Below, piece after piece: positions 724-63,964 of a stretch of DNA of 64,000 nt. Origin of the DNA: a virus. The DNA lies in the IMG/VR virus record IMGVR_UViG_3300034375_003182, positions 18,756 to 82,755 of that record. One strand, given 5' to 3'. The notes below the pieces were generated by a model. That model saw only the letters and a program-made list of their open reading frames with translations, was not told where the DNA came from and made no database searches. The position numbers were made by a program, and so were the translations under genes. How positions within the stretch are numbered: position 1 is the stretch's first letter; each line of letters begins with the position of its first letter.

Positions 724-3700
724 CCTTGTTTTGTTCGTACACTTCTAGTATACGTGACATCTGCTTATAACCAGGGAAGAATGGCAACGAGTAATATCCC
801 CATGGGGTCTTATCTCTGTTGTCTTCTCTTTGGGTTATAGCATCTACTACCTCATCCCATGTATTGTTTGTAGCTTTTAATGCATCTATTACTACACCTG
901 TCATTGGTACAGGAGTTCTGATAAAGCTTACCATTTCATTTGGATTACTTAAGAATCCAAGTTCCATTGCTGTTCTTGATAGCGATGCATACATTTTTCT
1001 TGTAGCCCAAGTTTTAGTATATAGTCTTTCATCGTCGTCTCCTTTCATACCAAGGGCCATCAGTGATAGTGCTAGTAATAATACCATTCGTAGTTCTGCA
1101 GCTGCTGCTCTGATCTGTCCCTGTCGCATTGAGAAGTACTCATTGAAAGACATCTTTTGTATGTTTGGATTATCAGGATTGTCTTGTATGTATTGTTTGA
1201 ATAGTTTTTCTGCTACCTCTTTGTTAGCTTTCATTTTATATCCTAAACCAAAAGTAGTTGCTTCAGCTGATAGTTTTAGTGCTGTAGCCAGAGTTCCTTT
1301 TATTTTACCAAAGAAGTTCTCTTCTATTTGCCACGCTTCACCTGCTACTACACTGTAACGACCTTGTTCGTATACATCTGCTACAGGGTTGTATCTAAAT
1401 GTACCTAGCCTTTCTCTAACTAGACGTGGCATCCAGTTTTTAAACTGCATAACAACATTACCAGTTAGAGTTGTGTTAACTACATTAATATCTTCATCAG
1501 ACATCTGCCCTTTTACAGATCCTCCAACGTATCTTGCTATGCCTCTGAATTTATTCATGCCTTCTTCAGACATTCCTTCTATTTTTAGACCATCTTCATT
1601 TATAGTTGTTAACTCAAAGATAGACTTGCTTCCTTCTGGTAGCAGTTCTAATCTTTTAGGCATGCCGTCTTCGTTTACGCCATAGTTCTGGGACATAGCT
1701 ATCAAGATATTGTTATCAATCATCTCATCCGCCTTACGATATGGGTAGTAAAGTTTATCCATAGTAGCAGTCTTTACTAGTTTACTAGCAGATAAGTTGT
1801 TTGCTACACGCATAGTAAAGTCATCTTGCCAAGGTTGGAAGAAGTTTACTAGTCCTAAGTATTTATCTTTTTGTTTGTAGAATAGACGATGTGTTTCCGC
1901 CATCTGCTTGTTTGTATAGTGTAATCCTTTAGCTCCCTCCATATATGCAGAAGCTTTGGCTGCTAAGTATGCAGCTGAACCCGGTATGAATGCAAGGCCT
2001 AATACTTTAGCAGAGAAGTATTGTTTAGCTCCTAGTATTACTTTGTTCTTACTATAACCTCCCCAGTCTGCATCTTTTGTTTGGATACGCTGTCCGTATA
2101 GATAGAAGTTTACATACAGTTGTTCAAATGTTTCTAGCGTATCTCTAGAATTCATTTTTTCTGCTAGTTTACCTGTCTTGTCTAAGAATGCGTTGCCGGT
2201 TGCATCACGTAGTGCAGCTGGATTATCAATTAAGAAACTTTGTAGTGCTAGTATGTGCGCTTCAATCTCTGACTTGTGTGCATAGTTGTGTACGGATTTA
2301 CCCATCAAATATAATGCGCGTCCTAAATCTTTTGTTTTTAAACTATTATCTACCTCACCATTAGCATTTCTAACTGGAGCCATGTACAGTGCAGGTATAG
2401 TTGCAATAGGTAAACCAGTAATCTCATCTAACATTCCGCCTTTGAAGTTATCATCTTCACGGATCTTCAATCCTTCTAGTAGTGTGTCAGAACTTAAGTC
2501 GTAGTTACCTGCAGCAATAGAATCAATTATATCTTGATGTATGTTTGCTATGAAGTTACCTTTAATACCTAGGCCTGACATCTCTGCAAACTTTCTATTT
2601 GTTTTTTGATAGAAGTCAAAGAATTCTTTTAATGGCTTTCTATCATTTAAGTACTTGTATTTATCAGAATAGTACAGCGCTTCTTTTTCAGGCTTAATCT
2701 CTAAGTGATACCAAGCTTTTGGACTTGTCCATGCTGAATCTCTACTGAGGTCATGTGTGTTTAACCAGGCCTGCTTCATTGCTTCACGCTTCTTTCCACG
2801 AACATTATTTGGATCAGGTACCTTCTCATACTTACCTGTCTTCTCATTATACTCTTCGTAGTCTGCAAACATTTCATCTATTCTTGCAAACTCTCTTTCT
2901 TTCCACTTATCAAACTTCTCTTGGTAACCCTCTTTCTTTTGGAATGTTTCTTTTGCCCATGCCACATCTTTGTTTTTTGCGGCATCACGAACTCTTTCAT
3001 AGTACTCAGGCGTATATTTACCAACCAGGCTGCCAGTGTTCTCATCTATCATTAGTCTGTAAGCATCCATCAGTGACATGCCATTGTCTTTGGCCCACTG
3101 TTCTACGCCGCCCTGATATTTTTTTATTTCTTTTTCTAATTCATTCTGTGCACGACGTGTTCTTTGCTGTGCCTTGTCTATGTATCCCCAAGCTGTTTGG
3201 AATACAGGATGGTCAAACTCTGACGCAGTGGCAAATGTCTTAGTTAAGAAGCTAAACTCTTTTACTAATCTAGTTGGATCTCCTACACCAAACTCTTGTC
3301 CCATACCAACAACTCTATCAGCCAGCTCAGCCTTTAAGTCTTCGTGTGTTCTTTGTATAACACCACTAGCTCTATCAAATCTTTGTACTAATTTATTATA
3401 TGCAGCCTCATCAGACTGTTGTAAATCTTTGAAGAAGTCTCTTGAATATTTAGACATACCTGTATATAAACCAAACTTATCTATCAGGTCTACCAGTTCG
3501 TCCATTTCTATGTAGTCCGCATTTTCTGCGCCGTCTGGCAAGAACTTATCTTTTACTCCTATTCTTTTTTCTAAAGATCTAACCTGTCTTGCAACTTCAG
3601 TAAGAACAGTATCTAATCCTCCATTCAATTGTAGAGCGGTTAGACTTTGTTGTATAGATTCTATCTCTGCAGATAGTTTATCATATTTTTGTGGATTGTT

Positions 3701-5698: not shown

Positions 5699-8600
5699 TT
5701 AACATTCAAATATTGTGCGCAACGTATCTAAGTGTGCTGTTAACGCAGGGTTAGTGCTATCAGGTATAACTAGTTTTATGTTTGGATTAGCGTCGAGTAA
5801 ACTTTTTATTATAACTACTCTAGAATCTATTTCTTGTTGAGTAGATTTGTTACCAGGTTCTAATCCTAGTGGTGGTAGCAAGAAGGTCTTACCTGGGTTC
5901 TTCTTTGCTAGCGTATCTATTTTACCTATACTGTCTGCAAATATAGCAAAATCTACCGGTTCTCCATACTGTGCTTTTGTAGGCGCAGATATTACATTAG
6001 CTTTAGCTGTAAATTTTTTTGCTATTGGCAAACCTTTTGCTTTGGCAACTCTAGCTAAACCATTTGCAAATGTTCCTGACTGATCCACTGGCACAATTGG
6101 TATGCCGGCTATATTAAATATGTCGCCTGTAACAGTTTGCTTGCCTCTACGCATCTCTTTTACATTTGGATCTAGAGTTTTATCAGTATGGTCTTTGCCA
6201 TCTAATGTGATATTATTAGAGTTAACCATTGATATTATTCCCTCTGGCCCATACTCTTGTAAATACATTCCATTACCTAGTGTAGTTATTTGCTCCCATA
6301 CCATAGTCCATGCGTTACCTATTTCCTTTCTCTTGCCTTCAGATAGTTTTTTAACTACAGTTTTATAGTTTGCTTTAGAGTCTTCAGTAAGTTTAAATAG
6401 TTTTTTAATTGTAGTTTTTTTGCCTGCTTTTATTAATCTTGCTTTCTGCTCTCTTGACAATGATGTATCAGGAATTTCTACAGATATAAACTCTTGAGGA
6501 GGCCTATTAGGAGAGGCTATTTGTAATGCTCTAGCCCCAACTATTCTAACCTTATTGCTTAATCCAGGGGGTATTTGTGTTTTTCCTGTGTCTGCCTCAA
6601 ATCCATACGTAGCCTCATCAACCTTTTGTTTCATATATTGAGGAACTACGAATGGATTTTTAAAATTGTTTTTATAGAACTGTAATCTAAAGTTATCTAG
6701 ATTAACATTGCTTTGTTCTTTTGTTCCTGCTAAATACTTTTTTAATATAGGATCAACTATGTCTATGTATTGCTGAGCCGGTATCAAATCCATAAAAGAT
6801 ACAGGGGATGTTTGCTGTCCTGATTGTAGTATTATAAACTTAACAATATCTTTTGCAAGCTCTGGATCTTTCTCCATTAGTACTTGCATGTCTTCTATTA
6901 ATGCATTACGCTCAAAAGATGTAAGACGTTTGTTAAACTTCTTTATATTTTCCGTGGCATACTCAGGGTGTGTAGGATCATATGTCTGCAGTATTGGGAA
7001 TAACTCATTTAGTATTAATGACTTCTTAGTATCCTTCTTCAATTGCATTACTCTTCTAGCTAAACTAGGACTGTCTTTAGTACCTTGGAATAATCTAGAA
7101 GCATCCTTAAATAACTCTTGCTGATTTTCTGTTCTAACTGTTTGTAGTATATAGTTTACTAGTGAGTTTTCTACAAGGCCTGCAAATCTTGCCTTATCAT
7201 CATTTCCTATATCTCTACGATTTATAATATCTACTATTAAAGAGTCTAAAATAAATTCAGCATCTGCTTTACGTGTAGTAGCAAACAGACTATCAAACAT
7301 TCTAGATGAGCTTTCTAAAGATTGCTCAAATGATTTTTGAAAACTTTCATCTAGATACTTATCTAAGTTTACAAATTTGTTTTCAGCTTTTAATGTATTT
7401 AACTTCATTACCTGCATTTTAGCTTCCATTCTATTTTTAGGAGCTAAACCAGATCTGTCACCGGTAACTGCTTCAGATAGCTCTTGCATTGGAATAGTTA
7501 AGCCGTCACGGATATCAATATACTTTTTCATTGCCTGCATTTGGAATGTATGATAATCAATTAGGTCTTGCGGCGTAAACTGATCTAACAGTTTTGCTTT
7601 CTGCTCAGGAGCCATGCCATTAGACATCTCTTCAAACTGTCTTGCCTTTTCACCTAGAGCTAACATTCTTTCCATTGCTGGAATAGTATACTCAACTGTT
7701 GCATCAAAATCTGTAGGTAGCCCTGATAGTGCAGCAATGTCTTTAGCTTTATTTTCATGTTCTTTTTGAAGAGTCTTACTTATTTCACCTAAACCAGTAG
7801 CCGGGTTCTCTGTCTTTGTGGCAACCATCTCGAATAGAACAGGCTGTGTCATAAACTTAGATACAAACTCTAAAGGAACACCTGCTCTAAGCATAGATAT
7901 GTACGTACTAGCAGTAGTCAAGTTACCGTTTATATCAAATACAAATGGATCTTTGGATACATCTACAAAGGCATTGATAAACTCCCCTATAATTTCTGAC
8001 ACATAGTTTAATCCTAACGCATCCCTAGTTCCTCCCATTGGAATAGCTAGGCTCCCATCTTCTAGCTCTATCATTTCATATGCAGGCATGCCTATAGAAA
8101 AGTCTGGGTCTACTCTTAACGCTAGTCCGGCACGTTGTGCTTTTATCTGGTGTGTATTAGCTACAGCTGCAACACCTAAGGCCTTCTTACCTGCTAAGAA
8201 TCTGTTACCCATTTCCTGTATAAACTCAAACTTAAGAAGATCGCTAAATCTAGGGGATTGATTAGACTTTCCTTGCAGGCCTCTAATAACATTAGCCATG
8301 TCTTTTAGTCTCTGAGCTCCAACCGGTCTAACTAGTTGTTCATAGTTAGCCTCATTTAAAACAATTTTTCTAGAGTTAGTTAAGATTTGATTCTGAATAG
8401 CTTGTGTAGCATTCTGTCTTTCTAATGGTATGTCTTGTTTGTCGACTGCATTAGCTATTTGTGAATCAATCTTTTCAAACTCTTTAGATATTTTATCTTT
8501 AACACTTTGAATAGATACATCCATGCCAGTGTCCGCATCTTGTATCTTAGCCATCCTGCGCATCTCTAGTAGTCCTATCTCAAAGTCAATGCTATCTCTT

Positions 8601-62682: not shown

Positions 62683-62920
62683 CTTTAAATTCTATTGTAG
62701 CTCGACCATCTTCCACAACTATCTGTGCTGTTTTAGATTGTCTGTTAAATTCTTCTATATAACCAACCACATCATCTCTGGTACACAGGAATGATAGGAA
62801 TACAGACATCTCTTTAGCTGCTCTAGCTGTAGAATCACGCAATTCATTTGTTTTTTGCGTATGCTCTATCAACTCTAAGTAGTCGTCTAGATTTATTGTA
62901 ACTGTGCCAGGGAGCTTCAT
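62654..62920 (-). CDS. Small helical protein (88 aa), unidentified
   Basis: This 88-aa protein has an acidic helical start (TINLDDYLELIEHTQKTNEL) and a beta end (TAQIVVEDGRATIEFKD). It starts in a TAATG overlap with the GroES-like gene, so it is translated with it. No family is recognised. Confidence 0.5.
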   Translation of the reverse strand: MKLPGTVTINLDDYLELIEHTQKTNELRDSTARAAKEMSVFLSFLCTRDDVVGYIEEFNRQSKTAQIVVEDGRATIEFKDDKNKISDE

Positions 62921-63195
62921 TAGAATTTACCTAATACTTGAAACTCACTAACAAACAAATACTGTACTTCATCAATATGAATCAGCATTGCCTCTGTATT
63001 TGGGTCTACCATAATCTTGTCACCCTTTTTACATTGCGTAACTTGCGGGCCTACCGCCAATACTTCTACTATGTTTGTTTGTAATGCTTTTGCAGTTGCA
63101 TCGTCTAAGATAATTCCTGACTCTGTAGTTTTTGAGTCTGGACGTGGTACAACTATCCACGCTCCGAAGGGTTGAAATGTAAATTCCTTTGCCAT
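62920..63195 (-). CDS. GroES-like co-chaperonin
   Basis: The preferred start is ATG 63195 (91 aa); a longer frame reaching 63234 would add 13 residues and run back through the promoter -7 box. The sequence follows the Cpn10 fold: FGAWIVVPRPDSKTTESGII, the mobile-loop region LDDATAKALQ, then VEVLAVGPQVTQCKKGDKIM and VQYLFVSEFQVLGKF. It is about the normal Cpn10 length. Phages with their own GroES homologues (gp31 of T4) use it to refold capsid protein with host GroEL. It is the first gene of the long late series. Confidence 0.8.
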   Translation of the reverse strand: MAKEFTFQPFGAWIVVPRPDSKTTESGIILDDATAKALQTNIVEVLAVGPQVTQCKKGDKIMVDPNTEAMLIHIDEVQYLFVSEFQVLGKF

Positions 63196-63220: not shown

Positions 63221-63253
63221 CAAAGGTATAACAAAATACTTTATAAATCCAAA
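63221..63253 (-). promoter_or_regulatory. Bacteroidota-type promoter before the GroES-like gene
   Basis: On the minus strand TTTG (63253-63250), 21 nt, then TACCTTTG (63228-63221) match the Bacteroidota form TTG-N17-23-TAnnTTTG. The start site would be near 63216, about 20 nt before the ATG at 63195. An inverted repeat lies just upstream at 63260-63273. Confidence 0.7.
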
Positions 63254-63273: not shown

Positions 63274-63309
63274 TAATAGATACACCACACCCCTAGGCGT
63301 TTGACTATT

Positions 63310-63543
63310 TCAGTTGGAATTTTACCGCTGGCAGTGCTGTCTTTTGGACTACCTAAGGACACTAAAACTGATGTTAATTCATCACACCTACCTCTGTGTA
63401 ATGTGCCCTAACCGTTGGCTATATCCGCCTTTTTAGAAGCTATTGGAGAAAACTCTAACCTTTATTTAAGGTCTACAATCCAACGTCTGACCCCATAACT
63501 ACCTCTCGGCCCTCTGGGGTGATACACGTATTGTGTGCTTCTG
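63310..63543 (-). ncRNA. Candidate structured non-coding RNA or long leader
   Basis: This stretch has no convincing gene on either strand yet is richer in G and C than other gaps. Several stems can be drawn: 63330-63335 with 63348-63353, 63381-63387 with 63396-63402, 63443-63447 with 63479-63483 enclosing 63458-63462 with 63468-63472, and 63490-63495 with 63515-63520. The first two contain a position that is a G-U pair only if the minus strand is the RNA (a C-A mismatch on the plus strand). An exact promoter match starts a minus-strand transcript at about 63543. It may be a free RNA or a long untranslated leader for the GroES-like operon. Confidence 0.4.
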
Positions 63544-63547
63544 AATG

Positions 63548-63578
63548 CAAAACTACTAAAAAATTTTTAACTACCAAA
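63548..63578 (-). promoter_or_regulatory. Bacteroidota-type promoter upstream of the structured region
   Basis: On the minus strand TTTG (63578-63575), 19 nt, then TAGTTTTG (63555-63548) fit the Bacteroidota consensus in both elements. Transcription would begin near 63543 and run through the structured region towards the GroES-like gene. Together with the promoter at 63221-63253 it gives the late series tandem promoters. Confidence 0.65.
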
Positions 63579-63667: not shown

Positions 63668-63964
63668 ATGGAAAATATTCCAGGTGTAGTAGTAGGTTCA
63701 GTAGCTCGTTCCTATGAAGGTAACACATACTACAGAGCTACAGCAAAGACAGCAGAAGGACTGATTTCCTTTAAAATAGCAGAGCGTCCTGCTTCAGGAC
63801 AAAATGTATTGCTAGACATTTACAAGAAAGGCACCAAGCTACCATTTGGAGATGGTTCTATTCTTGAGAAAGATTTGGCAGTATGTAAGTTAGATAGCTT
63901 CGATATTGAGGTTGTTAAGACAGCAGACGCGTTGCTAAAAGAGCTAGAGGGTATTACTTTGTAA
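63668..63964 (+). CDS. Small beta-rich protein of the opposite transcription unit
   Basis: This 98-aa protein starts at ATG 63668; a TTG 6 nt earlier is less likely. It is beta-rich (VVVGSVARSYEGNTYYRATA, GLISFKIAERPASGQNVLLD), with KLPFGDGSILEKDLA and a helical end (TADALLKELEGITL). No family is recognised. It runs divergently from the late series and so probably begins the early or middle gene set beyond the window edge. Confidence 0.6.
   Translation: MENIPGVVVGSVARSYEGNTYYRATAKTAEGLISFKIAERPASGQNVLLDIYKKGTKLPFGDGSILEKDLAVCKLDSFDIEVVKTADALLKELEGITL

Follow-up and report, generated by a model that had tools for sequence, protein, structure and literature searches.

A short intergenic interval of a marine crAss-like phage encodes a structured RNA that is very likely real and important, judging by its conservation among related viral sequences. 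The predicted transcript comes from the minus strand of the window (a 64-kb stretch of a viral record of 82,755 bases). Comparison at the level of sequence establishes a conserved two-domain fold, the strand, the placement of the promoter, the presence of one copy per genome and the spread of the RNA. It forms a new family outside Rfam; structured phage RNAs as such are already a known kind. In our judgement, held with moderate confidence, the best explanation for these features is an autonomous RNA gene of a new phage structured-RNA family, the product of which would act in trans.

The source phage is crAss-like, because its terminase matches Crassvirales terminases in tblastn searches (identity up to ∼41%) and is assigned to phrog_6681. 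Its relatives are marine and other environmental contigs. The RNA sits between a plus-strand gene for a 98-residue protein and the minus-strand late series, which opens with a GroES-like gene and further on encodes an HU/IHF-like protein, the terminase and the portal (Table 1). The record's two ends share a 440-bp overlap, 96% identical (G000:C1:1-440 versus 82316-82755), so that the genome closes as a circle of ∼82.3 kb, with this region present as two alleles. A physical genome end at the RNA region was considered and dropped because of this overlap and because other contigs break elsewhere.

Table 1. Features of the RNA locus (window coordinates; paired strands of a helix are separated by a slash).
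Feature	Position	Strand	Description
Opening gene of the opposite, divergent arm	63668..63964	+	98 aa; no family
RNA promoter, Bacteroidota-type	63548..63578	-	TTTG (63578-63575), N19, TAGTTTTG (63555-63548); exact match
Structured RNA	63277..63543	-	∼265 nt, two domains; 5' and 3' ends both predicted
5' domain	63436..63541	-	P1 closes the junction of P2, P3 and P4; carries conserved GGATTGTAG...GAGTTTTCTCC
Helix P1	63541-63537/63440-63436	-	
Helix P3	63522-63516/63494-63486	-	
Helix P4	63484-63479/63447-63442	-	with inner hairpin
3' domain	63279..63424	-	closed by P5, 63424-63420/63284-63280, of GUAUA...UAUAU type
Promoter of the groES-like gene	63221..63253	-	TTTG-N21-TACCTTTG; downstream of the RNA
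GroES-like gene (Cpn10), first late gene	62920..63195	-	Pfam PF00166, E 1.7e-7

The first-pass annotation of this interval had described a minus-strand promoter that is exact in both elements, and so it proved. The pattern TTTG-N19-TAnnTTTG has two exact sites in the window, against 0.34 expected from shuffles. The flavobacterial sigma-A box TAnnTTTG spans positions -12 to -5 (PMC9723704), and this spacing places the predicted start of the RNA near 63543, two bases ahead of helix P1. The annotation had also placed the promoter and the RNA together between 63310 and 63578. There is indeed an RNA here, but its predicted start lies near 63543 and it runs on past 63310 to about 63277. Most relatives have a -7 box (TAnnTTT[G/A]) 12-16 nt before P1, most often exactly 12-13 nt, and the predicted start therefore falls on or adjoins the first base of P1.

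No known family accounts for the RNA. Rfam 15 (4,227 families) gave no match at gathering score across the whole window and none between 63150 and 63700 with E-values allowed up to 5. The GOLLD covariance model (RF02032) did not match the RNA, and ARAGORN detected no transfer RNA or tmRNA in the window. In the loci of 12 relatives, Rfam 15 matched GOLLD, Pistol, tmRNA, permuted tmRNA and tRNA, all outside the RNA. GOLLD, Pistol ribozymes, tmRNA and permuted tmRNA occur in RNA-carrying contigs at L060:2695-3086, L059:3860-3926, L080:6884-6947, L071:1480-1852 and L168:366-548. Our literature searches found no report of the RNA, and library searches together with Rfam found no structured non-coding RNA for the order Crassvirales. 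Nor is there a gene in the interval, as had been proposed: a coding test on 94 RNAs found practically all frames of all members interrupted by stops, with no forward frame ever stop-free, and their lengths are spread evenly over the three remainders modulo 3. The earlier description of a phage non-coding RNA with its own promoter and no known family is thus strongly supported by Rfam, the covariance model, covariation and promoter placement.

From the window alone the evidence for a fold is slight. The single-sequence fold scores z -2.0 against shuffles and the plus strand z -1.6, which is only a modest gain. Comparison decided the matter, and where at least five stems had been drawn the actual fold has about 12 helices in two domains. 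We built a covariance model, R1, of 253 positions and 62 pairs from 38 sequences. The window matches it at 63279-63541 on the minus strand with 223.8 bits and E 3.5e-64, a rough E-value given the shortened calibration of the model and one obtained with the window itself among the 38 seed sequences. Besides this match, the window has the other marks of the R1 family: the core, the P1-P4 junction and a TAnnTTTG box upstream. Across 94 distinct sequences, in an alignment biased toward the structure to which it was fitted, 96.3% of the cells of the 62 pairs in 12 counted helices are paired, against 35-50% in slid controls. Double changes affect 39 of the 62 pairs in the same alignment, amounting to 728 cells against a shuffled mean of 219 and no more than 109 in slid controls. 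A MAFFT alignment made without the structure is free of that bias and already contains significant canonical pairs under the covariation test described next.

The annotation had staked the RNA on covariation among homologues, and covariation is present. Of the structure pairs in a model-guided alignment of 85 sequences, 11 reached E≤0.05, essentially all of them canonical; the test was our own script after the idea of R-scape rather than R-scape itself (G-test, APC correction, tree-based null). Seven of the significant pairs fall in P1, P3 and P4 and four in the 3' domain, and the P2 pair 8-16 has E 0.18. One further pair, 58-99, covaries without canonical pairing and was set aside as a two-clade effect beside P4.

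The 5' domain is the most conserved part of the RNA. Helices 1-4 are paired in 96-100% of cells and double changes are found in all five P1 pairs: P1 reads GAAGC/GCUUC here and GAGAC/GUCUC, GCAAC/GUUGC, GUAAU/AUUAC or GAGGC/GCCUC, among others, elsewhere. The junction of P2-P4 carries the invariant GGAUUGUAG and GAGUUUUCUCC. When the 5' domain was taken by itself, MAFFT misaligned P1 across subtypes. The 3' domain holds P6, P7, P9, P10, P11 and a weak 3' hairpin, P12, and helices 5-12 are paired in 87-100% of cells. Long stretches of the RNA are both invariant and unpaired. Inspection by eye lent no support to pairing between the 3' AAGGGGG and either the CCCC of P3 or the 16S anti-Shine-Dalgarno sequence.

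The strand can be read from the same 94-sequence alignment. The minus strand has 835 G-U cells against 43 A-C cells, making 96.3% of cells pairable on the minus strand and 82.4% on the plus strand. This excess identifies the minus-strand RNA as the selected strand, and it confirms in aggregate the earlier remark that stems keep pairing on the minus strand alone through G-U. It also bears on the idea that the conserved object is DNA, be it a replication origin, a packaging site or a protein-binding region, with inverted repeats that mimic an RNA. The divergent intergenic location and the AT-rich flanks are what such an element might have. Pairing on one strand is something that a DNA cruciform cannot explain, however; the spacing between the promoter and P1 is constant, and neither the overlapping contig ends nor the break points of other contigs imply a physical end. 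The DNA reading is largely refuted, and we regard it as very improbable.

Relatives were collected in several ways. A search with the GroES-like protein yielded 44 close viral loci (L003-L046), in which the DNA upstream of groES is ∼69-99% conserved. The core, GGATTGTAG-N4-30-GAGTTTTCTCC, was found in more than 119 viral stretches among the matches listed. Because loci were mostly collected through this motif, conservation of the core is partly selected for, and the loci selected by terminase serve as the control. In 100 loci, most of them collected by the motif, R1 finds a single copy apiece. Among loci fetched by terminase similarity alone, 39 of 44 have the RNA, always on the terminase strand, and the carriers include four that lack the exact search motif (L213, L214, L220 and L230). 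Most of the five without it have too little upstream DNA; L227 has no match in 5.9 kb upstream. Twelve marine or environmental records, scanned whole with R1, gave one strong match each; a second, weak match in one record (G007, 15.6 bits) was judged to be chance. By these sequence criteria the RNA's hosts are mostly marine Crassvirales, and the family is near-universal in one marine branch.

The family reaches beyond that branch. The human-gut crAss phage cr118_1 has one R1 match (NC_055872:66598-66826, 26 bits, E 3e-6 per genome), in a divergent intergenic region just before late genes that include a putative chaperonin. It was the sole phage with a match among 12 phage records, the 11 others having none under a model trained on marine sequences, which distant members may escape. 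An unfiltered R1 search of parts of cr114_1, ProJPt-Bp1, Fpv2 and crAss001 returned only noise, blastn of two RNA variants against cultured phages returned nothing real, and one viral and one cr118-like pattern had zero matches. Across 84,980 bacterial and archaeal species, each represented by one genome, the core motif was not found as an RNA. Core-motif matches in three loci from genome contigs (L176-L178) and in the viral locus L117 lie within or beside ordinary genes and were rejected as chance; L178 gave the sole R1 match among them (11.3 bits, E 0.5). The RNA is thus found only in viral collections.

The RNA also occurs in podoviruses that have an unrelated terminase. These (L070 and L149, 58.6 bits; L293, 37.9 bits, E ∼1e-9) have a terminase of phrog_38, which is not crAss-like, and the portal of L149 and L293 is not crAss-like either. 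The 5' core is nearly unchanged in these phages. This finding weighs on the proposal that the RNA is part of the terminase-portal motor, as the pRNA of phi29 is. Both are structured phage RNAs encoded near packaging genes; in two unrelated phage groups the RNA lies near genes for the terminase, small terminase or portal (in L149 the small-terminase gene is just behind it), and it would be expected late. A motor component is not expected to survive exchange between unrelated large terminases (phrog_6681 versus phrog_38) with the same 5' core, however, and R1 found nothing in most of the cultured Crassvirales whose terminases are related. Unlike the phi29 RNA, moreover, ours has no Rfam match, and in one candidate described below it is unlinked from the terminase. 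A packaging role appears quite unlikely to us.

The terminase genes themselves showed some irregularities. Two records have TAA codons, one and two respectively, inside the aligned frame (G009:C1:59004-60989 and G010:C1:21533-23518), for which recoding, insertion and alignment overrun are all possible. In two others the match is split within a single open frame of more than 1,000 residues (G003:C1:19393-22503 and G013:C1:16628-19768), which suggests an intein or a large insertion.

Nearly everywhere, the late or packaging arm begins with the RNA, which has the same orientation; the exception is G013. It had been suggested that the RNA is a regulatory leader for the whole late series. We do not find this established, because groES nearly always has a second promoter (TTTG-N17-22-TAnnTTTG) behind the RNA. 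Where groES comes next, the gap between the two is mostly 56-92 nt and that promoter nearly always lies inside it. The late operon thus need not start at the RNA promoter. Read-through into genes inserted right behind the RNA does occur in other genomes, which makes a leader role conceivable. The second promoter is kept even in relatives that have other genes inserted between the RNA and groES.

The first gene downstream is groES in many genomes and an unrelated gene in many others, and the constant downstream identity that marks a riboswitch or a gene-specific leader is absent. Genes inserted behind the RNA include a histidine kinase with response regulator (L096), a lectin-like gene (L136) and a DUF5872-like gene (L067), and they leave the RNA undisturbed. 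Where a different gene follows directly there is no promoter behind the RNA, and in many genomes that next gene begins only 3-50 nt away. Read-through must therefore occur, and the RNA is not associated with any one gene. We found no terminator behind it. The insertion in L096 (L096:4427-6090) comprises genes for a PAS/histidine kinase and a response regulator, and the same 409-residue gene follows the RNA in L216.

No -7 box precedes the RNA in six loci (L011, L013, L017, L115, L139 and L175), where it begins at an upstream gene or shortly after it, so the RNA need not be the 5' end of its transcript. Several of these upstream genes encode cysteine-rich products that end in ...NCGS. In L041, L035, L010, L013 and L019 the gene immediately before the RNA encodes a small cysteine-rich protein ending in ...ENCGS, and in several loci its stop codon marks the start of the RNA or lies directly in front of it.

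These arrangements can be set against a cis-acting leader, which would alter the polymerase or the following mRNA and so switch on the late series, either by processive antitermination, as the put RNA of HK022 and the EAR element of Bacillus do, or by attenuation. It would fit the way the RNA directly follows a promoter and heads the late arm almost wherever it occurs, L149, L293 and cr118_1 included, as well as the read-through that the closely following genes require and the lack of a detected terminator. The put RNA and the EAR element are cis-acting antitermination RNAs of ∼70-120 nt and, like our RNA, fold directly behind a promoter and let downstream genes be read through. By contrast, the downstream operon here has its own conserved promoter at the start of the late series, the RNA can follow another gene, as it does in the six loci, and with 265 nt and twelve helices it exceeds the put and EAR elements in size. 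The G013 candidate, moreover, is not linked in cis to packaging genes. A leader of this kind is possible, though we lean against it.

That candidate comes from a 108-kb record, G013 (loci L287 and L295), whose crAss-like terminase matches at 34%. It has an exact promoter, TTTG-N19-TATCTTTG, the 16-nt core and a minimum free energy fold with P1 (GGCC/GGCC), P2, P3 and P4. Against the full R1 model it scores only 12.8 bits (E 0.006 in 16 kb), and it came from a scan whose new matches were mostly chance. On these sequence features the element is a probable distant relative of the RNA. It lies at ∼50.5 kb on the minus strand, 31 kb from the terminase (16.6-19.8 kb, plus strand), and is antisense to a neighbouring portal gene. 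The gene after it has its own promoter, TTTG-N19-TAAATTTG.

Large phage RNAs have been described before: GOLLD and ROOL exceed 600-800 nt and their function is unknown (PMC12286853). Our RNA resembles them in being an elaborately folded, virus-associated non-coding RNA of phages and metagenomic viruses. It differs in having no Rfam match, in its smaller size (∼265 nt) and in heading the late arm rather than lying in a tRNA island. The two kinds coexist in L060, where GOLLD occupies 2695-3086 on the minus strand and the RNA 5938-6188 on the plus strand. Another conceivable function is that of a self-cleaving or otherwise catalytic RNA, or of a decoy against a host defence system. The long invariant unpaired stretches and the restriction to viral collections would suit it, whereas the RNA bears no resemblance to the ribozymes of Rfam; we think this unlikely.

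We favour an autonomous RNA over an obligatory leader on the strength of groES's own promoter, the unrelated genes behind the RNA and the location in G013. Its place at the head of the late arm outside G013, which fits a cis-acting leader too, the lack of a detected terminator and the promoterless next genes count against this choice. As an autonomous gene, read on the minus strand, the RNA would have a host-type promoter of its own where the early and late arms part, and its product, either an RNA or an RNA-protein particle, would act in trans during infection. Read-through into the next gene would be tolerated and not required. The partner may be a conserved host component such as the ribosome or RNA polymerase, the choice of target being our guess; a host partner is more plausible than a phage packaging protein since the 5' core stays nearly unchanged beside unrelated terminases. 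Tentatively, we propose a new class of RNA, common to Crassvirales and unrelated podoviruses, that might act in trans, when early expression gives way to late, on a conserved host machine (ribosome or RNA polymerase), with the 5' domain as a portable module for host takeover.

Viruses of the crAss-like group are among the most abundant known. The family described here places a defined RNA at the point where their early and late genes diverge, near-universally in one marine branch, in a gut member and in unrelated phages. It may represent a new means by which phages control Bacteroidota cells.
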